DNA of 43,524 nt, taken from the NCBI GenBank assembly GCA_026388735.1, contig JAPLJG010000080.1, positions 1-43,524 on the forward strand, given 5' to 3'. Shown in pieces: positions 1,784-20,108 of the stretch. The translations under genes were made by a program, and so were the position numbers. Each line of letters begins with the position of its first letter. Within the stretch, counting starts at the first letter, position 1. The notes beneath the pieces were generated by a model. It did no database searches. It was not told the origin of the DNA and saw only the letters and a list, made by a program, of their open reading frames with translations. This DNA comes from Deltaproteobacteria bacterium (GTDB taxonomy: Bacteria > Desulfobacterota > Desulfobulbia > Desulfobulbales > Desulfurivibrionaceae).

Positions 1784-2416
1784 ATGTCAGACCAGCATCC
1801 CAAAACCTACAACATTCTCCCTGGACCCAAAATGGGTCTTGTCACCCCAGACTATTTGGAAGCCGTTGCCGCGGCAGCGCGCAAGCACAATATCCCGCTG
1901 CTCAAGCTCACCTCGGCCCAACGGATCGCCATCGGCGGCCACACCCCTGAAACGGCAGCAGCCATCTGGCAAGATTTCGGGCAGGCCGAAGGCCCCAAAA
2001 AACCGGTGGGCATCCACTATATTCAATCCTGCCCGGGCGTGCAGTGGTGCAAGTTCGGCAGACAGGATTCCCCGGCTCTAGGCAAGAAGCTGGAGGCCCT
2101 GATGACCATCCCGCTCCCTGCCAAGGCCAAGGTCGGGGTTTCCGGCTGCTCCATGAACTGTTGCGAGGGGTTTGTCCGCGACCTCGGGGTGTTTGGCAAG
2201 AAGAACGGCTGGACCCTGGTTTTTGGCGGCAACGGTGGCGGGCTGCCGAGGATTGGCAACATCATCGCCCAAGACTTGAACGATGATGAGGTCGTCGGTC
2301 TGGCGGAAAAATGCCTCAGCCACTACGCGGCCAACGCCCGCAAGCTGGAACGTACCGCCCGCTTCATGGAGCGCACCGACTTGGAAAAATTCAAGGAAAC
2401 GGTGCTGGGCAAATAG
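1784..2416 (+). CDS. Low-molecular-weight siroheme/[4Fe-4S] sulfite reductase
   Basis: A 210-residue protein of the nitrite/sulfite reductase ferredoxin-like half-domain family. Small monomeric assimilatory-type sulfite reductases of about this size are known from Desulfovibrio; they reduce sulfite to sulfide using one siroheme coupled to one [4Fe-4S] cluster. The siroheme/cluster motif is complete: C83-x5-C89 (SCPGVQWC) and C122-x3-C126 (GCSMNC), with an additional C127, and the intervening residues agree with the family (GCSMNCCEGFVRDLGVFG). The ATG at 1784 is preceded by a perfect AGGAGG eight bases upstream; an earlier in-frame codon at 1751 lacks such a site. No partner subunit is adjacent, so electron donor is unknown. 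The palindrome at 1709-1726 suggests regulation by an FNR-like protein. Confidence 0.85.
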   Translation: MSDQHPKTYNILPGPKMGLVTPDYLEAVAAAARKHNIPLLKLTSAQRIAIGGHTPETAAAIWQDFGQAEGPKKPVGIHYIQSCPGVQWCKFGRQDSPALGKKLEALMTIPLPAKAKVGVSGCSMNCCEGFVRDLGVFGKKNGWTLVFGGNGGGLPRIGNIIAQDLNDDEVVGLAEKCLSHYAANARKLERTARFMERTDLEKFKETVLGK

Positions 2417-2428
2417 CCGAGAGCAACC

Positions 2429-3679
2429 TTAAAACCAAAGATTACAGACCGTCACCGCAGCAATGAGCCCTGCTGTTTCGCCGCAGAGCGCGGCGGGCAG
2501 GGCGTGGCGCGTGCGCCGGATGCCGATGGCGCCAAAGTAAACGGCCAGCACGTAGAGGGTGGTTTCGCTGGAGCCTTGGATAACCGAAACCATGGCGGAG
2601 AGCAGGCTGTCCGGCGACTGTTTGATGATCTCGCTCATGAAGGCGAAGGAGCCGCTGCCGGACAAGGGCCGCAACAGGCCCATGGCCAGAGCCTCGGCCG
2701 GCATGCCCACCGCAGAGGTCAACGGCGAGAGGACAGCGACCAGGATATCCATGGCCCCGCTGGCCCGGAACATGCCGATGGCAACAAAGATCGCCACCAT
2801 GAAGGGAATAATCCGCATGGCCGTGGTGAAACCCTCCTTGGCCCCGTCGGTGATGGTTTCATAGATCCGCACCCCCCGCAGATAGCCGAAGATCAACAGC
2901 CCGGAAATCAAGGCCGGAATCAGCCAGCTGGACAGACTGTTGAGGCTGGCTGCGGAAAAGGCCAACGGCTCCGCCGCACTCATCAGTTGATACACAGCCC
3001 CCCCCGCAAATGCCGCAACCAACAACCCGATGAACCATTTCCCGGTCGTACTCGGCGGGAACAGCTCCGGTTCAGCGCACTCTGCCTCGATCTCTGATTC
3101 GCTCGTCTCATGGATTTTCGACACCATGACCGATTCCTGCCCGCTGTTTCCGCGGGCCAGCATCTTGGCCGCCACGATGGCCACGATGGTGGAGCAGGTA
3201 GTGGCAATAAGCGAAGGAATAAAAATGGCGGCCGGGCTTGTCGCACCCGCAGCGGCCCGGATGGTGATCACCCCCAAGGGCAGCAGGGTGACGCTGGAGG
3301 TGTTGATCGCTAAAAACAGGCACATGGCGTTGGTGGCCGTGCCTTTTTCCGGAGCGAGCTTTTCCAGTTCCTGCATGGCCTTGATCCCCATGGGCGTGGC
3401 CGGATGGTCGTGGGGCACATCGGGAAACAACCGGACCATCAGGGGCCGCACCCACCGAGCCACAATCCGCATCAACCCCCCGGCCTCGGCCACCTTCATG
3501 ATCCCCAGCCAAAGGGCCATGGGCCCAATCAGGCCGATGGCCAGGACAACCGCGTCCTTGGCCGACTCGAACGAGGCCTTGGTCAGGGCGTCCATCCGGT
3601 TGGTGTAGGCGGCGGTCACCGTGGCCAGCACGACCATGGACAGCCAGATGATATTGATAACCGAAGCTTTCTGTTTCAT
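2429..3679 (-). CDS. SpmA/SpmB-like nucleoside-recognition (Gate) membrane protein
   Basis: A 416-residue polytopic inner-membrane protein combining what Bacillus encodes as SpmA and SpmB (spore maturation) in one chain. Two homologous Gate (nucleoside recognition) domains are visible: an N-terminal one with LIGPMALWLGIMKVAEAGG and GTATNAMCLFLAINTSSVTLLP, and a C-terminal one with RIIPFMVAIFVAIGMFRASGA and RPLSGSGSFAFMSEI plus QGSSETTLYVLAVYFGA. A hydrophilic linker rich in Glu/Ser (SEIEAECAEPELFPPS) lies between them at about residues 190-215. The substrate in non-sporulating bacteria is unknown. Start 3679 has GGGGGAAG upstream; upstream in-frame codons at 3703 have none. It is convergent with the sulfite reductase gene, with only 12 bp between stops. 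Confidence 0.85.
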   Translation of the reverse strand: MKQKASVINIIWLSMVVLATVTAAYTNRMDALTKASFESAKDAVVLAIGLIGPMALWLGIMKVAEAGGLMRIVARWVRPLMVRLFPDVPHDHPATPMGIKAMQELEKLAPEKGTATNAMCLFLAINTSSVTLLPLGVITIRAAAGATSPAAIFIPSLIATTCSTIVAIVAAKMLARGNSGQESVMVSKIHETSESEIEAECAEPELFPPSTTGKWFIGLLVAAFAGGAVYQLMSAAEPLAFSAASLNSLSSWLIPALISGLLIFGYLRGVRIYETITDGAKEGFTTAMRIIPFMVAIFVAIGMFRASGAMDILVAVLSPLTSAVGMPAEALAMGLLRPLSGSGSFAFMSEIIKQSPDSLLSAMVSVIQGSSETTLYVLAVYFGAIGIRRTRHALPAALCGETAGLIAAVTVCNLWF

Positions 3680-14386: not shown

Positions 14387-15604
14387 ATGCAACAAAAGGT
14401 TGTCCATCTTGAGGAGCAAGAGGAACCTCCTGGGTGCTGCCCCAGCCCAGCCTTTCCGTTTTCCGGCCAAGTTCCCTCCCTCACCTTCCGCCAAAAACAT
14501 TTCCCCTCCGCCACAGATGATGATTGGCACGACTGGCAGTGGCAGCTTCGCAACCGCATCACCAGTCTCAAAAAACTCGGCAAACTCATAGACCTCTCGG
14601 ACAGCGAGCGGCAGGCCATGGCCTTTAACGGCGCCACCCTGCCCCTGGCCATTACCCCCTATTACGCCAGCCTTATTTCCCCTGACGATCCGAGGCAGCC
14701 GCTTCGACGCACCATGGTGCCGGTGGTTAACGAGCTCTTGGTGTCCCAGGGCGAGGAACACGATCCCTTAGGCGAAGACAATCACAGCCCGGTGCCCGGT
14801 CTGGTGCACCGCTACCCAGACCGGGTCCTCTTTCTGGTCACCGACTACTGTTCGAGCTACTGCCGCTACTGCACCCGCTCCCGGATGGTTGGCCGCCGCA
14901 AGAGCCACAGCCCGGCCCGCTGGCAAAAAGCCATCGCCTACATCGCAAACAACCCAGCCATCCGCGACGTGCTCCTTTCCGGCGGCGATCCGCTGACCAT
15001 GGCCGACGAGCAGTTGGATTGGCTGCTTGGCCGTCTGCGCCAGATCCCCCATGTGGAGATGATCCGCATCGGCACCAAGGCCCCCATGGTCCTGCCCCAG
15101 CGCATCACCCCCGAGTTGGTGGCCATGCTGAAAAAACATCACCCGTTGTGGATGAGCATCCACTGCACCCACCCCGACGAGCTGACCCCGGAAGCGACCA
15201 AGGCCTGCGCCATGCTTGCCGACGCGGGCATCCCCCTGGGCAGCCAGACCGTGCTCCTCTCCGGGATCAACGATTCCGTGGAAACCATGCGGCAGCTCAT
15301 GCACGGCCTGGTCAAGATCCGGGTCAAGCCCTATTATCTGTACCAGTGCGATCCCATTATCGGTTCAGCCCATTTCCGCACCCCGGTTTCCAAGGGGCTC
15401 GAGATCTACCAAGGTCTGCGCGGCCATACCACCGGCTATGCCGTGCCCAACTATGTGATCGACGCACCGGGAGGAGGCGGCAAGATCCCGCTCATTCCGG
15501 AAACCGTGGTCGGCCGTGAGGGCAACGATCTTTTAATCCGCAACTACGAAGGCAAGGTCTACCGCTACCCCGATGTGATTGGCGCGGCAAGCCGGGCAAG
15601 CTGA
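14387..15604 (+). CDS. KamA-family radical SAM aminomutase (lysine 2,3-aminomutase-like)
   Basis: A 405-residue radical SAM/PLP enzyme of the lysine 2,3-aminomutase (KamA/AblA) family, which converts L-lysine to beta-lysine. The radical SAM cysteines are C155-x3-C159-x2-C162 (CSSYCRYC, followed by TRSRMVG), and LLSGGDPLTM is the SAM-binding glycine motif. The PLP-lysine region is visible near the C-terminus (DAPGGGGKIPLIPE). Length agrees with the family. The start has AGGAGAAGAG upstream. It heads a same-strand cluster with two ATP-grasp ligases and acetyltransferases, so its product is probably a building block for an acetylated amide or peptide; in the known osmolyte pathway (ablA-ablB) beta-lysine is acetylated by a GNAT enzyme. 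Substrate could also be glutamate or another amino acid; that is not decided by the sequence. Confidence 0.88.
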   Translation: MQQKVVHLEEQEEPPGCCPSPAFPFSGQVPSLTFRQKHFPSATDDDWHDWQWQLRNRITSLKKLGKLIDLSDSERQAMAFNGATLPLAITPYYASLISPDDPRQPLRRTMVPVVNELLVSQGEEHDPLGEDNHSPVPGLVHRYPDRVLFLVTDYCSSYCRYCTRSRMVGRRKSHSPARWQKAIAYIANNPAIRDVLLSGGDPLTMADEQLDWLLGRLRQIPHVEMIRIGTKAPMVLPQRITPELVAMLKKHHPLWMSIHCTHPDELTPEATKACAMLADAGIPLGSQTVLLSGINDSVETMRQLMHGLVKIRVKPYYLYQCDPIIGSAHFRTPVSKGLEIYQGLRGHTTGYAVPNYVIDAPGGGGKIPLIPETVVGREGNDLLIRNYEGKVYRYPDVIGAASRAS

Positions 15605-15623
15605 TAAGGTTTTTGTCCAACCT

Positions 15624-15751
15624 AGTTCCCCCTCCCTTGACGGGAGGGGGCCGGGGGGTGGGTGAAGCGACGACCCGCCTATTTGAGAGCTATTTCCCCC
15701 TCTCTCTAACCCTCCCCCGCCAGCAGTGTCAACGGCGAGGGGGAGGGAACT
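15624..15751. repeat. GC-rich intergenic inverted-repeat element
   Basis: A 128-bp element with complementary G/C-rich ends (AGTTCCCCCTCCC at the left, GGGGGAGGGAACT at the right, imperfectly inverted) and an internal hairpin CCCCCTCCC-ttgac-GGGAGGGGG. It lies between kamA and the first ATP-grasp gene. It resembles the dispersed GC-rich palindromic repeats found between genes of many proteobacteria and may separate or stabilise parts of the transcript. Confidence 0.7.
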
Positions 15752-15812
15752 TTTAGGCCTTTTGCAAGAGGCCATCTATGATCGATTACAAACTGAATCA
15801 AGGAAAATATCC

Positions 15813-16796
15813 ATGCTGATCGGAATGACCTACGACCTGCGGAGCGACTATCTGGCCGCAGGCTACGGGGAAGAAGAAACCGCCGAGTTCGACCGGGAAT
15901 CGACCATCGCGGCCATTGATGCTGCTCTGCGCGGCATGGGCCACGAAACCGTGCCCATCGGCAATTTCATGGGCCTCATGCCCCGGCTTCTGGCAGGCGA
16001 GCGCTGGGATCTGGTCTTTAATATCTGCGAAGGTCTGTACGGTTTTGGCCGGGAAGCCCTGGTCCCGGCGCTGCTGGAGGCACACCGGATTCCCTACGTC
16101 TTTTCCGACCCTCTGGTCCTGGGCCTGACCCTGCACAAGGGCATGAGCAAGCATGTGGTCCGGGATCTCGGTATCCCGACCCCCGCCTTTGCCGTGGTGA
16201 AGTCCATGGCGGATGTGGCTGGCGTGGCTCTACCCTATCCGGTCTTTGCTAAACCCGTGGCCGAGGGCACCGGCAAGGGCGTGACCCCGGCCTCCAAGAT
16301 CAGCACTGCCGAAGAGCTGCACGTGGTCTGCGCCGATCTCCTGCACACCTACCATCAGCCGGTGTTGGTGGAATCCTACCTGCCGGGCCGGGAGTTCACC
16401 GTGGGCATCGTGGGCAACGGCCCGGCAGCCCGCAGCATCGGCATCATGGAGGTGGTGCTTTTGCCCAATTCCGAACCGGAGGTTTATTCGTACCACAACA
16501 AGGAGTTTTGCGACGACTTGGTGGAATACCGCAAGGTGGACGATGCGGAAGCCCAGCAAGCAGAGGCAACCGCCCTGGCCTCCTGGCACGCCCTGGACTG
16601 CCGCGACGGCGGCCGGGTGGACCTGCGCTCCGACGCCAACGGCATCCCCAATTTCATCGAGGTCAATCCCCTGGCCGGGCTCCACCCCGAGCATTCCGAC
16701 CTCTGCATCATCGCCACCAAGTACGGAATCTCCTACCAGGAATTACTCAGCGAGATCGTTGCCGCCGCCATTGCCAGACTCGGGCTTGCGCCATGA
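15813..16796 (+). CDS. ATP-grasp ligase 1 (D-Ala-D-Ala-ligase-like)
   Basis: A 327-residue ATP-grasp enzyme related to D-alanine-D-alanine ligase. These enzymes activate a carboxylate as acyl phosphate and join it to an amine. Visible features: N-terminal Rossmann-like preATP-grasp part with WDLVFNICEGLYGFGREALVPALLE (substrate-side region of Ddl-type enzymes), ATP-binding lysine in PYPVFAKPVAEGTGKGV, LVESYLPGREFTVGIVG and the Mg-binding end IPNFIEVNPLAGLHP. Several Ddl-specific catalytic residues are changed, so a different amide product is likely. The start at 15813 has AAGGA upstream. Its stop overlaps the ATG of ATP-grasp 2 (ATGA), so the two are translationally coupled. The pairing of two distinct ligases suggests two successive bonds or a heterodimer. 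Confidence 0.87.
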   Translation: MLIGMTYDLRSDYLAAGYGEEETAEFDRESTIAAIDAALRGMGHETVPIGNFMGLMPRLLAGERWDLVFNICEGLYGFGREALVPALLEAHRIPYVFSDPLVLGLTLHKGMSKHVVRDLGIPTPAFAVVKSMADVAGVALPYPVFAKPVAEGTGKGVTPASKISTAEELHVVCADLLHTYHQPVLVESYLPGREFTVGIVGNGPAARSIGIMEVVLLPNSEPEVYSYHNKEFCDDLVEYRKVDDAEAQQAEATALASWHALDCRDGGRVDLRSDANGIPNFIEVNPLAGLHPEHSDLCIIATKYGISYQELLSEIVAAAIARLGLAP

Positions 16797-17794
16797 AGCA
16801 CCTAAAGGTCGGGATCATCCATAACGAGCCGATCCCCAAGGGTGAGCCCAACTGGGAATCATCCGCCGATGTCCTGGCCCAGGTGGAGGCCATTGAGGGT
16901 GCGCTCACCGAGCTGGACCAGCCCCATGTGCGCATCCCCTTTACCCGCGATCTGGGCTGCTTTGTCAGCAAGGTGCAAGCGGCAGGGATCACCCTGGCCT
17001 TCAATCTCTGCGAATCGGTGGACGAAGATCCGCTCCTCATCGGCCATCCGGCCGCAGTCCTTGAGCTGTTGTCCATTCCCTTCACCGGCTCCTCGGCCAT
17101 GGCGCTGCTTCTCTCCACGGACAAACTCACGGTGAAAAGGCTGCTCACCGCCTCGTGTCTGCGCACCCCTGCCTTTTTCCTCTACGAAGGCGGCGAGGTG
17201 CTGCGGCCCGCGGGGCTCAACTTCCCGGTGATCCTCAAGCCTCGCTTCCAGGACGCCAGTATCGGCATCGAGCAGGCCTCGGTGGTGGAAAAGAGCACCG
17301 AGCTGCTGCCCCGGCTGGAAGACCATTACGCCCGCTATGGCGCCATCCTGGTGGAAGAGTATGTTGCCGGGCGGGAGTTCAACGTCTCGCTCTTCGGCTA
17401 TCCTAAGGCCCAGGTCATGCCCCTGGCGGAGATCGATTTTTCCGGCTTTCCCGCCGATCTGCACCGGATCGTCAGCTACAAGGCCAAATGGGACGAAGAC
17501 TCGTTTGAGTACCAGCACACCCAACGAATTTTTCCGACCGACCTTCCCGAACCCTTGCAACTGACCATGCGCCGCATGGCCCAGGATTGCTTTGGACTCT
17601 TCGGTCTGCGCGACTACGCCAGGGTTGATCTGCGCCTTGATCAACAAGGCCGCCTTTCCATCCTGGAGATCAACGCCAATCCCTGCCTGAGTCCGGACGC
17701 CGGTTTTCCCGCCGCCGTGACCGAAAGCACCATGAGCTATACGGAGATGGTCGGGGAATTTATCCGGTTGGTATCTCTGCGGGGCGCCCTATGA
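16793..17794 (+). CDS. ATP-grasp ligase 2 (D-Ala-D-Ala-ligase-like)
   Basis: A 333-residue ATP-grasp enzyme, distantly related to its neighbour. It has the N-terminal preATP-grasp domain (KVGIIHNEPIPKGEPNWES; LAFNLCESVDEDPLLIGHPAAVLELL), ATP-binding lysine in FPVILKPRFQDASIGIEQ, LVEEYVAGREFNVSLFG and the metal-binding ending LSILEINANPCLSPDAG. The serine-rich Ddl loop is replaced by HRIVSYKAKWDEDSFEYQHT. It overlaps the previous gene by 4 bp and the next (GNAT) by 4 bp (ATGA), so it is embedded in a tight operon. The substrate is unknown; context suggests a beta-amino-acid or acetylated amino-acid peptide. Confidence 0.87.
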   Translation: MKHLKVGIIHNEPIPKGEPNWESSADVLAQVEAIEGALTELDQPHVRIPFTRDLGCFVSKVQAAGITLAFNLCESVDEDPLLIGHPAAVLELLSIPFTGSSAMALLLSTDKLTVKRLLTASCLRTPAFFLYEGGEVLRPAGLNFPVILKPRFQDASIGIEQASVVEKSTELLPRLEDHYARYGAILVEEYVAGREFNVSLFGYPKAQVMPLAEIDFSGFPADLHRIVSYKAKWDEDSFEYQHTQRIFPTDLPEPLQLTMRRMAQDCFGLFGLRDYARVDLRLDQQGRLSILEINANPCLSPDAGFPAAVTESTMSYTEMVGEFIRLVSLRGAL

Positions 17795-18264
17795 TCACCA
17801 TCCGGCCCATCGTTGCAGAAGACCGCACCCAACTGCTCCGGCTGGTGGAGCGGCAGGATAATTTCAATAGCCAGGAGGTGGAGGTGGCCATCGAGGTCAT
17901 CGACGACACCCTGGACCCGACCAAGAACGATTATTCCATCCTGGTGGCGGTGCGCGAAGAGCAGGGGGGGGTGGGTTTTATCTGCTACGGGGATATCCCC
18001 ATGACCGACCGCCGCTTCGACCTGTACTGGGTGGCGGTGGACCCGGCCTTGGGCAGACAGGGAATAGGTCGACTCCTGCTTGCCCGGATGGAGGCGGAGC
18101 TACGCGCCCAAGGCCCGGCCAAGGTTTACGTGGACACCTCCTCCACGCCGGGCTATGATTCAGCCCGCACTTTTTACGAGAAAAACGGCTACCAAGTGGC
18201 CTGCGTGCTCCATGATTTTTACCGGGACGGCGACGACAAGGTGATCTACTTCAAGGAGTTGTGA
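17791..18264 (+). CDS. GNAT-family N-acetyltransferase
   Basis: A 157-residue single-domain GNAT. The acetyl-CoA pyrophosphate-binding motif is ALGRQGIGRLLLARME, preceded by the typical beta-4 strand (RRFDLYWVAVDP) and followed by YDSARTFYEKNGYQVACVL. It would transfer acetyl from acetyl-CoA to an amine. The ATG overlaps the stop of ATP-grasp 2, and its own stop lies just upstream of the GNAT-HDAC fusion start, with the ribosome-binding site for that gene inside its last codons. By analogy with AblB, the beta-lysine acetyltransferase of the N-epsilon-acetyl-beta-lysine osmolyte pathway, it may acetylate the KamA product or the ligated amide; this is inference. Confidence 0.9.
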   Translation: MITIRPIVAEDRTQLLRLVERQDNFNSQEVEVAIEVIDDTLDPTKNDYSILVAVREEQGGVGFICYGDIPMTDRRFDLYWVAVDPALGRQGIGRLLLARMEAELRAQGPAKVYVDTSSTPGYDSARTFYEKNGYQVACVLHDFYRDGDDKVIYFKEL

Positions 18265-18266
18265 CC

Positions 18267-20015
18267 ATGTTCAGAATCCGCCGGATCTATGACGACACCC
18301 TGACCATCGACCGCGAAACCATCGATCAGGTGCAACAGATCCTGCGCAGCCAGTTTTCGGCAATATCGGAAAGCGAGATCAACAGCCTGGCCCAAAAGCT
18401 TTCCAACCCCCTGAAATACCGCTTCCGCACCATCCTCTTCGTTGCCGACGACATGAAGCACCGGGTCAAGGGGTTTGCCCTGCTCAACCATGCCCCGGAC
18501 CTTTCCTTCTGCTTTCTCGACTTCCTCTCCGTGGACCCGAAGGCTGCAGCCGGGGGCATCGGCGGCGCCCTGTACGCCCGGGTTCGAGAGGAGGCCCGCA
18601 CCCTAGGTGATGAGGGGATCTTCATGGAGTGCCTGCCCGATGAGGCGAAGATCTGCCGCGAACCGGCCACGGTAAAGCAAAGCCGATCCCGGCTCCGGTT
18701 CTACGAGCGTTACGGGGCCTTGCCCATCATCCATACCGCCTACGAAACGGTGCTCAAGCCGGAGTACGATTGCCCGCCCTATCTGGTCTATGACGATCTC
18801 GGCACCGGCCAGCCCCTTGCCAGGGAGAGGGCCCGCGAGGTGGTGCGTGCCATCCTCATCCGCAAGTATGGCAAGGATTGCCCCAAGGGCTATATCGACA
18901 TGGTGGTGGAATCGTTTGCGGACGACCCGGTGCTGCGCCGTGCACCCCGCTATATCAAGACCGAGCCGATCAAGGTGCATCCGGTCAAATCCCTGGAAAA
19001 ATTGATCGCGCTGATCGTCAACGAAAAGCACGATATCCATCATATCCGGGAACGGGGCTACGTGGAGGCGCCGGTGCGCATTGCCTCCATCCTCAAGGGG
19101 ATCGAGCCCACCGGCCTGTTCGAGCGGCTGCCGACCCGTCATTTTTCCGAGCGGCACATCAAGAAGGTGCATGACCCAAAGTTTGTCGATTATCTCCATC
19201 AAATATGCACCAGCCTTGAACCTGGGAAATCGGTCTACCCCTATGTCTTCCCCATCCGCAACGCGGCTCGGCCCCCCAAGGATCTGCCGGTGCGGGCAGG
19301 CTACTATTGCATCGACACCTTCACTCCTTTGAACCACAACGCCTACAAGGCGGCCAAGGGCGCGGTGGACTGCGCCTTAACCGCAGCCCAGCTTCTTGAG
19401 AAGGGCTACCGCCTGGCCTATGCCCTGGTCCGGCCGCCGGGCCACCATGCCGAACGCCGGTTGTTCGGCGGCTTCTGCTACTTCAACTCGGCCGCCATCG
19501 CTGCCAATTATCGCAGCCGCGAGGGCAGGGTGGCGGTGCTGGATATCGATTACCACCACGGCAACGGCACCCAGGATATCTTTTATCGGCGCAACGACGT
19601 ATTGACCCTTTCGATCCACGGTCATCCCAGCTTCGCCTATCCCTATTTTTCCGGCTTCAGCGATGAAGTGGGTGAGGAGACAGGCAGAGGATTTAATCGC
19701 AACTACCCTTTGCCTGAAGCGCTGGACGGCACAGCTTACCGGCTGGTGCTGGCCAGGGCGCTCAAGCGGGTCCGCGCCTTTAAACCGCAATTTCTGGTGG
19801 TGGCTCTGGGGTTTGATCCGGCAGAAAAAGACCCCACCGGCACCTGGTCGCTCACCGCCGCAGATTTCGAAGAAATCGGCCGGATGCTCGGCAGCCTGCG
19901 GTTGCCCACGCTGATCGTGCAGGAGGGCGGCTACCGGACCCGCTCGTTGGGCACCAATGCCCGCCATTTTTTCCTGGGACTCTGGGTCGGCATGCACGGG
20001 AATAATCGTGCCTAA
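18267..20015 (+). CDS. GNAT acetyltransferase - HDAC/acetylpolyamine amidohydrolase fusion
   Basis: A 582-residue two-enzyme fusion. Residues ~1-160 form a GNAT-like domain (FALLNHAPDLSFCFLDFLSVDP then AAAGGIGGALYARVREEA; SRLRFYERYGALPI). A linker of ~110 residues follows. Residues ~270-575 form a histone-deacetylase-superfamily domain with all key motifs: RPPGHHAE (catalytic His pair), GGFCYFNSAAIAA, VLDIDYHHGNGTQDIF (zinc Asp and His), LSIHG, GFDPAEKDP (zinc Asp) and QEGGY (catalytic Tyr). Such enzymes remove acetyl groups from Lys side chains or acetylpolyamines. Start 18267 is chosen for its AAGGAG at 8-nt spacing; GTG 18261 is too close. Acetylating and deacetylating activities on one chain, at the end of an aminomutase/ligase operon, suggest a protection-deprotection step or turnover of the product. 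Confidence 0.9.
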   Translation: MFRIRRIYDDTLTIDRETIDQVQQILRSQFSAISESEINSLAQKLSNPLKYRFRTILFVADDMKHRVKGFALLNHAPDLSFCFLDFLSVDPKAAAGGIGGALYARVREEARTLGDEGIFMECLPDEAKICREPATVKQSRSRLRFYERYGALPIIHTAYETVLKPEYDCPPYLVYDDLGTGQPLARERAREVVRAILIRKYGKDCPKGYIDMVVESFADDPVLRRAPRYIKTEPIKVHPVKSLEKLIALIVNEKHDIHHIRERGYVEAPVRIASILKGIEPTGLFERLPTRHFSERHIKKVHDPKFVDYLHQICTSLEPGKSVYPYVFPIRNAARPPKDLPVRAGYYCIDTFTPLNHNAYKAAKGAVDCALTAAQLLEKGYRLAYALVRPPGHHAERRLFGGFCYFNSAAIAANYRSREGRVAVLDIDYHHGNGTQDIFYRRNDVLTLSIHGHPSFAYPYFSGFSDEVGEETGRGFNRNYPLPEALDGTAYRLVLARALKRVRAFKPQFLVVALGFDPAEKDPTGTWSLTAADFEEIGRMLGSLRLPTLIVQEGGYRTRSLGTNARHFFLGLWVGMHGNNRA

Positions 20016-20027
20016 TGCCCCAAAAAG

Positions 20028-20063
20028 AAAGCCCCTTTTCCAGGGAGGGGGAAAAGGGGCTTT
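20028..20063 (+). terminator. Strong hairpin terminator after the kamA-HDAC cluster
   Basis: A 14-bp perfect stem: AAAGCCCCTTTTCC (20028-20041) pairs with GGAAAAGGGGCTTT (20050-20063), 12 bp after the stop codon. The short U run inside the stem end makes it usable in the forward direction and possibly bidirectional. Confidence 0.8.
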
Positions 20064-20108
20064 CAGTGGGGGAGGGAAGGAGAATAAAAACAGAAATTGA
20101 ACGAAAAT

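Follow-up and report, generated by a model that had tools for sequence, protein, structure and literature searches.

A conserved lysine-aminomutase and ATP-grasp ligase gene cluster that may make an acetylated beta-lysine amide or peptide

What would a bacterium make with a lysine aminomutase, two amide-forming ligases, an acetyltransferase and a deacetylase encoded side by side? The question is raised by a five-gene locus (positions 14387 to 20015) on contig JAPLJG010000080.1 of GenBank assembly GCA_026388735.1, a Deltaproteobacteria bacterium of the Desulfurivibrionaceae (phylum Desulfobacterota), where the window, that is, the whole stretch of DNA analysed, spans 43,524 nucleotides. An earlier note, made from the sequence alone, had proposed that these genes make a small acetylated peptide or amide containing a beta-amino acid. 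Here we find that four of them (KamA, ATPg1, ATPg2 and GNAT) are a conserved core to which the fifth (GHD) is an optional addition, and we think it slightly more likely than not that the operon is dedicated to making a peptide or amide of beta-lysine that is N-acetylated and stays inside the cell. All five genes lie at the place and on the strand where the note had put them, except that the start of ATPg1 moves to 15813, the GTG open reading frame (ORF) from 15726 being over-long and relatives starting at the homologue of 15813:

14387 to 15604, forward strand: KamA, a KamA-type radical SAM (S-adenosylmethionine) lysine 2,3-aminomutase, as predicted, of 405 amino acids, without the C-terminal region of AblA
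15813 to 16796, forward strand: ATPg1, a Ddl-type ATP-grasp ligase of 327 amino acids, start corrected from relatives
16793 to 17794, forward strand: ATPg2, a second Ddl-type ATP-grasp ligase, 333 amino acids
17791 to 18264, forward strand: GNAT, a GNAT N-acetyltransferase of 157 amino acids
18261 to 20015, forward strand: GHD, a GNAT-like domain joined to a predicted deacetylase of the histone deacetylase (HDAC) family, acetylpolyamine amidohydrolase (APAH) type; 584 amino acids (from GTG at 18261) or 582 (from ATG at 18267)
18411 to 18722, forward strand: the GNAT-like domain of GHD, about residues 49 to 152, Pfam E about 1e-4
19062 to 19973, forward strand: the HDAC domain of GHD, with the acetylpolyamine-amidohydrolase fold

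Is the grouping conserved? The earlier note had named this beforehand as the check that could sink its idea, and the neighbourhood proved clearly conserved in both sets of loci that we compared. An alignment scan with ATPg1, using one genome per species, confirmed at least 568 relatives, and the best 80 of these, a choice that favours close relatives, are called the named loci (group names are as given in the records, many of which are metagenome-assembled genomes, MAGs). Among them, KamA lies upstream of ATPg1 on the same strand in 77 (two of the three absences fall at contig ends; tblastn, counting partial genes too, finds it in 79), ATPg2 lies beside ATPg1 in 71 (four of nine absences at contig ends), GNAT is present in 59 (14 of 21) and GHD in 15 (21 of 65). 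Their carriers include Deltaproteobacteria and Desulfobacterota-type taxa, Planctomycetes, Bacteroidetes, Acidobacteria, Aminicenantes, Ignavibacteria, Neomarinimicrobia, WOR-3, Fibrobacteres and Sumerlaeota, with further taxa besides. To take in less close relatives, and as a safeguard against wrongly binned MAG contigs, 60 further loci were hand-picked from ATPg1 matches at E up to 1e-80, 20 from each of three groups. Such matches occur in 101 of 394 sampled genomes of Desulfobacterota, the phylum of the window (20 picked, every one stronger than 1e-130), in 37 of 294 genomes from the phylum of a Fuerstiella MAG, Planctomycetota (20 picked, the top matches minus the centre genome, leaving out the 16 weakest genomes), and in 39 of 295 from the order of a Bacteroidales MAG (20 picked), so that the marker is carried by about a quarter of sampled Desulfobacterota and about an eighth of sampled Planctomycetota and Bacteroidales. 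The picked loci hold KamA in 53 cases, ATPg2 in 57, GNAT in 50 and GHD in nine. Nineteen more loci were taken from the window phylum so as to be varied, weak matches included (one genome, G349, is shared with the picked set); KamA lies inside the fetched stretch in 16 of them and is absent from it in three (L172-L174). A chance grouping of the five genes is excluded, because the neighbourhood is conserved across named and picked loci, and the counts in these two sets are why we treat KamA, ATPg1, ATPg2 and GNAT as the core and GHD as optional.

Gene fusions supply independent evidence that the products work together. ATPg2 and ATPg1 form a single open frame in three loci (L172-L174); so do ATPg2 and GNAT in locus L184 and in seven of the 60 picked ones, and GHD is fused to GNAT in L064, L066, L067, L185 and L312. 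Most often the genes run KamA-ATPg1-ATPg2-GNAT-GHD; a divergent group has GHD ahead of GNAT or fused with it. GHD was also searched in 97 relatives, of which 32 have a long GHD, 38 have ATPg1 (E up to 1e-80) and 30 have both. The two with GHD only (G002 and G054) each carry pieces of ATPg2 or KamA beside a contig end or gap, and one (G010) of the eight with ATPg1 only is cut by a contig end; in G044, G048 and G059 both are present in the genome with GHD apart from the core. Among 33 wider stretches around GHD, core genes adjoin it in 28, and one more (L071) has a different gene set. The predicted GHD deacetylase is best read as an optional late module.

Which reaction would start the pathway? 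KamA matches positions 3-359 of the 417 in the lysine 2,3-aminomutase model TIGR03820, with the C-terminal part unmatched. All 117 distinct cluster KamAs (117 of 117) keep the radical SAM motif CxxxCxxC as well as R134, D293, D330 and K337 (numbered after the solved enzyme, 2a5h), and we take Arg134, Asp293, Asp330 and Lys337 (the last for pyridoxal phosphate, PLP) to be lysine-site residues. At position 268, 94 of the 117 have Asp, Ser or Asn, and Cys is outside the six commonest residues there; Cys268 of AblA presumably belongs to a zinc site. (Residue counts here and below are of distinct rows; those for KamA, ATPg1 and ATPg2 cover at least 85% of the model, ligase rows scoring higher against the other ligase's model and GHD rows shorter than 540 amino acids are left out, and the profiles omit seven loci with broken or truncated genes as well as rows outside the length limits.) Evolutionarily, 93 of 98 cluster KamAs form one clade (Shimodaira-Hasegawa-like approximate likelihood ratio, SH-aLRT, 96) in a quick midpoint-rooted tree with some long branches, and 17 AblA rows form a separate one (SH-aLRT 99). 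The outlying cluster KamAs (L180, L182, L183, L184 and L212) stand partly on long branches, and KamA may, judging from the tree, have been swapped for another KamA in a few clusters. Relatives thus hold three classes, namely AblA (over its cut-off in 17 of the 97 relatives, in 16 of which it adjoins AblB, the remaining one lying at a contig end), the cluster KamA and a third class, which shares most of the lysine-site residues, so that these residues indicate lysine-type binding rather than membership of the cluster. The third class (L225-L234) occurs in many of the 97 relatives, including the window's own genome (G000:C92), and may not be one clade. Of the cluster KamAs, 34 of 75 from named loci and 24 of 53 from picked ones have an acidic E/D-EPP motif ahead of the KamA domain (window 14387-14440), against 0 of 17 AblAs and 0 of 10 third-class KamAs; the motif was rejected as a conserved mark of cluster KamAs, under half of which carry it.

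A lysine-type aminomutase beside an acetyltransferase recalls one alternative, a plain AblA-AblB-type operon making the osmolyte N-epsilon-acetyl-beta-lysine, a route that a passage of PMC3543383 proposes for Pelobacter carbinolicus. In the AblA-AblB system of methanogens, a lysine 2,3-aminomutase is likewise followed by an acetyltransferase and the lysine-binding residues are the same; in line with this reading, the cluster keeps that site and includes a GNAT, and AblB was found neither in the window's own genome nor in eight of eight other carriers searched. The cluster differs, however, in that its KamAs form a clade of their own and lack the C-terminal region, its GNAT has no match to AblB (TIGR03827) at E up to 1e-3, two ligases are added and a deacetylase is optional. 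Several relatives, G008 and G033 among them, carry a true AblA-AblB pair besides the cluster, which bears on the idea of a salt osmolyte, and ATPg2 stands beside ATPg1 oftener than GNAT does, the two ligases even being fused in several loci. A plain AblA-AblB operon was ruled out on the model scores, the distribution of AblB and the KamA tree, and we regard the osmolyte reading as unlikely.

Lysine side chains are frequent targets of the GNAT and HDAC families, and KamA relatives include EpmB, a KamA-family aminomutase that also acts on lysine. The genes could therefore put beta-lysine on a protein or translation factor in the manner of EpmB/EpmA on elongation factor P (EF-P), with GNAT and HDAC controlling acetylation of the added residue. 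The cluster KamA, however, scores 263 against the EpmB model (TIGR03821), far under its cut-off of 369.3, and EF-P modification was ruled out on that score; the ligases are of Ddl type, and the cluster has no further gene as a constant neighbour. Assayed enzymes of the APAH branch, as far as portions of PMC11532494 describe them, act on small amines, which also tells against a protein target, although one of them deacetylates peptides and a protein too. Protein modification is, in our view, quite unlikely.

Structurally, the ligases point to amide synthesis. The predicted structure of ATPg2 (mean predicted local distance difference test score, pLDDT, 92.8) has D-Ala-D-Ala ligases as its best solved matches (Foldseek E 1.8e-25), the ATP-grasp core is kept in both ligases, and the Ddl-type ATP-grasp fold makes amide bonds via an acyl phosphate. 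Would the cluster then build a beta-lysine-containing cell-wall precursor? The Ddl fold and the catalytic core, shared with the Ddl/Van family, speak for it. Unlike that family, however, both proteins stay under the curated cut-off of every one of the 25 best models listed for each, and far under those for Ddl (at best 136.8 against 243 for ATPg1 and 119.8 against 243 for ATPg2), and where Ddl has Tyr behind the invariant omega-loop Lys, ATPg1 mostly has Glu (103 of 127 rows) and ATPg2 mostly Trp (110 of 114). The own genome's canonical Ddl lies elsewhere and has the omega-loop Lys-Tyr, which we take to have a role in D-Ala-D-Ala ligase. No Mur-type family is among the ten neighbour families that we looked up. 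The scores under cut-off and the separate canonical Ddl ruled out a cell-wall Ddl identity for the ligases, and ATPg1 and ATPg2 are, to judge from their sequences, Ddl-type in fold and not D-Ala-D-Ala ligases; a cell-wall precursor seems extremely improbable.

The acetyl-handling half of the cluster raises a further question, whether its substrate is a polyamine. The HDAC half of GHD is nearest to acetylpolyamine amidohydrolases by sequence and fold, the nearest solved sequences being those of M. ramosa and Marinobacter subterrani (the GHD structure model has a mean pLDDT of 76.7, with several poor loops). As in APAH, every one of the distinct GHDs (42 of 42) keeps the catalytic His pair, the zinc ligands and the Tyr (H158, H159, D195, H197, D284 and Y323) together with the motifs RPPGHH and EGGY, and these two motifs are tied to acetyl removal in a section of PMC11532494. 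Unlike in APAH, the HDAC part of GHD is preceded by a GNAT-like domain and, in some lineages, followed by a second GNAT; GHD also lacks E106, E117 (M. ramosa numbering) and the PIS motif. At the first position the 42 rows have Pro (30), Ser (10), Ala (1) or Arg (1), and at the second Phe (41) or Tyr (1); PIS becomes PTG, with I291 replaced by Thr (41) or Ser (1) and S292 by Gly (all 42). In the parts of the two sources that treat these residues, E106 binds polyamine and PIS is common to bacterial polyamine deacetylases (PMC11532494), and E117 binds polyamine in APAH (PMC5454378). Loss of E117 weighs more than loss of E106, because one assayed bacterial polyamine deacetylase, an APAH, also lacks E106 (PMC11532494, same portion). 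The predicted deacetylase site is thus intact and the residues presumed to recognise polyamine are missing, and an acetylpolyamine hydrolase identity for GHD was ruled out on that ground. Polyamine-conjugate synthesis, or action on acetylpolyamines, has in its favour the APAH-like HDAC domain and a distantly related ATP-grasp protein that adjoins polyamine genes in locus L154; the replaced residues stand against it, as does the lack of any polyamine gene among the neighbour families looked up, and we consider it very unlikely. The N-terminal GNAT-like domain of GHD has weak Pfam matches (E about 1e-4, one model barely over its cut-off), GHD relatives match GNAT Pfam models in 10 of 12 cases at E up to 0.01, again weakly, and the domain may be inactive.

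Since at least one tested defining feature fails for each, we assign the cluster to none of the AblA-AblB, Ddl and APAH systems. The pathway to the osmolyte N-acetylglutaminylglutamine amide (NAGGN) is comparable in using an acetyltransferase and ATP-grasp chemistry to reach an acetylated peptide, and to our knowledge has no aminomutase and no HDAC.

Would the product leave the cell? For the outside-neighbour survey, ORFs of the 80 named loci were clustered and ten families were looked up, with Pfam from one member each. The commonest families were DUF47/PhoU-like (14 loci), phosphate transporter (13), formamidopyrimidine-DNA glycosylase (13) and sigma-54 activator (11); a family of 12 loci is an ORF antisense to ATPg1 and probably spurious. 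A lysA-like family, which counts in favour of the beta-lysine pathway, occurs in nine of the 80 loci, and the lysA-like gene downstream in L102 scores 288.8 bits against a cut-off of 297.9. No transporter or regulator is a constant neighbour among the clustered ORFs of these loci, and the absence of a constant transporter suggests an intracellular product. Beta-lysine is found in antibiotics such as streptothricin and viomycin, a precedent for a secreted siderophore, antibiotic or signal containing it; against such a product, no transporter, carrier-protein or regulator family is constant (the commonest outside family reaches 14 of 80 loci) and the broad distribution suggests a housekeeping role, so that we think it highly improbable.

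From the computed gene set, gene order, fusions, KamA lysine signature, ligase fold and deacetylase site, we infer the substrates, order of steps, product, cellular place and purpose as follows. Through radical SAM/PLP chemistry, KamA would convert L-lysine to L-beta-lysine. Its near-constant partner ATPg1 would activate a carboxylate as an acyl phosphate and form an amide with beta-lysine, and ATPg2 would add a second amide to give a product of three building blocks. GNAT would then acetylate a leftover amine, the epsilon-amine of the beta-lysyl unit being the likeliest site. In the minority of lineages with GHD, including the host, the HDAC domain would take the acetyl group off again and the GNAT-like domain may add one, making the pool switchable between free and acetylated amine. 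An acetylated beta-lysine amide or peptide is consistent with three features, namely the lysine signature in KamA, the Ddl-type ligase fold and the HDAC motifs for acetyl removal, and to that extent the product first suggested for this locus is supported, but the HDAC falls outside the core, being present in 15 of 80 named and nine of 60 picked loci.

Several observations weigh against this pathway to a beta-lysine amide or peptide. The best family model for KamA, TIGR03820, gives 497.6 bits under a cut-off of 525.4, for which reason lysine as the substrate rests on the active-site residues; and the ligase substrates are not readable from fold or motifs. GNAT and GHD are frequently missing, five named loci (L081, L105 and L115-L117) have no ATPg2 despite enough contig, and in four of the 33 wider stretches (L050, L054, L062 and L068) GHD occurs without core genes; given gaps in ATPg2, GNAT and GHD, a smaller product may exist in some loci. 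In L176-L179 KamA and ATPg2 are adjacent, ATPg1 is more than 3 kb off and no GNAT was found. KamA itself is absent from the 16-18 kb fetched around the fused ligases of L172-L174 and has no nearby copy in seven of the 60 picked loci, and these cases suggest another amine source in some lineages; in two loci without KamA, an aminotransferase-like ORF (by eye) adjoins ATPg1 (L256 6951-8132 and L257 4783-5970), possibly such a source. As an observation apart, L187 has an extra ORF with a weak ATP-grasp match between KamA and ATPg1 (2091-3050).

Each member enzyme family is known, and the combination and its spread appear to be undescribed. In agreement with the earlier note, which knew of no characterised pathway with this exact set, no description of the gene set was found among the matches listed from the open full-text literature, subscription papers and preprints, which may describe it, lying outside that scope; the words aminomutase and ATP-grasp are both absent from the main text of the bacterial deacylase survey PMC11532494. 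When a gene set stays together across many phyla and its members fuse again and again, there is usually a pathway with a real product behind it, and here the first step, lysine to beta-lysine, is predictable and the carriers are common in anoxic habitats, many of them anaerobes of unrelated groups. A more far-reaching reading, which we hold to be less likely than not, is that a whole metabolite class has been missed, a tripeptide-like and reversibly acetylated beta-lysine compound serving anaerobes generally in stress, in storage or in a cofactor-like way rather than as a salt osmolyte. Several carriers seem, from their isolate names, to come from lake, fen, groundwater or sludge, sources that speak against a salt-only role. 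If the pathway is real, an HDAC-fold enzyme of the acetylpolyamine-amidohydrolase branch would gain a role outside polyamine metabolism, and relatives of D-Ala-D-Ala ligase a new job. Two five-gene carriers, Desulfopila sp. IMCC35006 (L079) and Desulfocarbo indianensis SCBM (L133), are, by their record titles, named strains rather than MAGs, so that the compound can be sought directly.

How tightly is the operon itself put together? Coupling of the genes, as first described, is borne out from ATPg1 through GHD, with ATGA overlaps at ATPg1/ATPg2 and ATPg2/GNAT and, if GHD starts at GTG 18261, a GTGA overlap at GNAT/GHD (a start at ATG 18267 would have its own AGGAG site). It does not extend to KamA, which is separated from ATPg1 by 208 nt containing a repeat, compared with 15 nt from stop to start in the related locus L040. 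Scanning the whole window against Rfam gave no match at gathering scores and thus no riboswitch clue, and a plasmid search with GHD returned partial-length matches only (0 of 166 records reach a query coverage of 80%). Two further features lie in and beside the operon:

15622 to 15750, no strand assigned: a dispersed repeat in the KamA-ATPg1 gap, outside the conserved cluster
20027 to 20064, reverse strand: a terminator-like hairpin

The repeat, of about 130 bp, occurs at 26 places in the own genome including its own site, the other 25 copies being mostly matches to its first 100 bases or fewer, and looks like a small mobile or repetitive extragenic palindromic (REP)-type element. The hairpin, taken at first for a strong terminator of the operon, is real; because its T-run is on the minus strand, it fits better with the convergent gene at 20838-20227, which is peroxiredoxin-like (naming by eye).

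More distant ATP-grasp proteins stand in other gene groups. On a side branch (L071 6253-9404 and L153 995-5130), an ATP-grasp domain is fused with a domain of Peptidase_S58, a family that includes beta-aminopeptidases, in a protein of 715 amino acids, the fusion being shown by Pfam for L071. This protein adjoins an HDAC about 40% identical to that of GHD, and in L153 the protein as long as that of L071 has an AblB gene directly upstream. In L154 (423-10247) and L155-L157, a Ddl-like protein of about 716 amino acids is followed by gamma-glutamyltranspeptidase and N-formylglutamate-amidohydrolase-like genes (by Pfam in L154, by eye in the others); in L154 it adjoins speA, carboxynorspermidine synthase-like and nspC genes, and the L154-L157 group is possibly an amide or polyamine-conjugate cycle.

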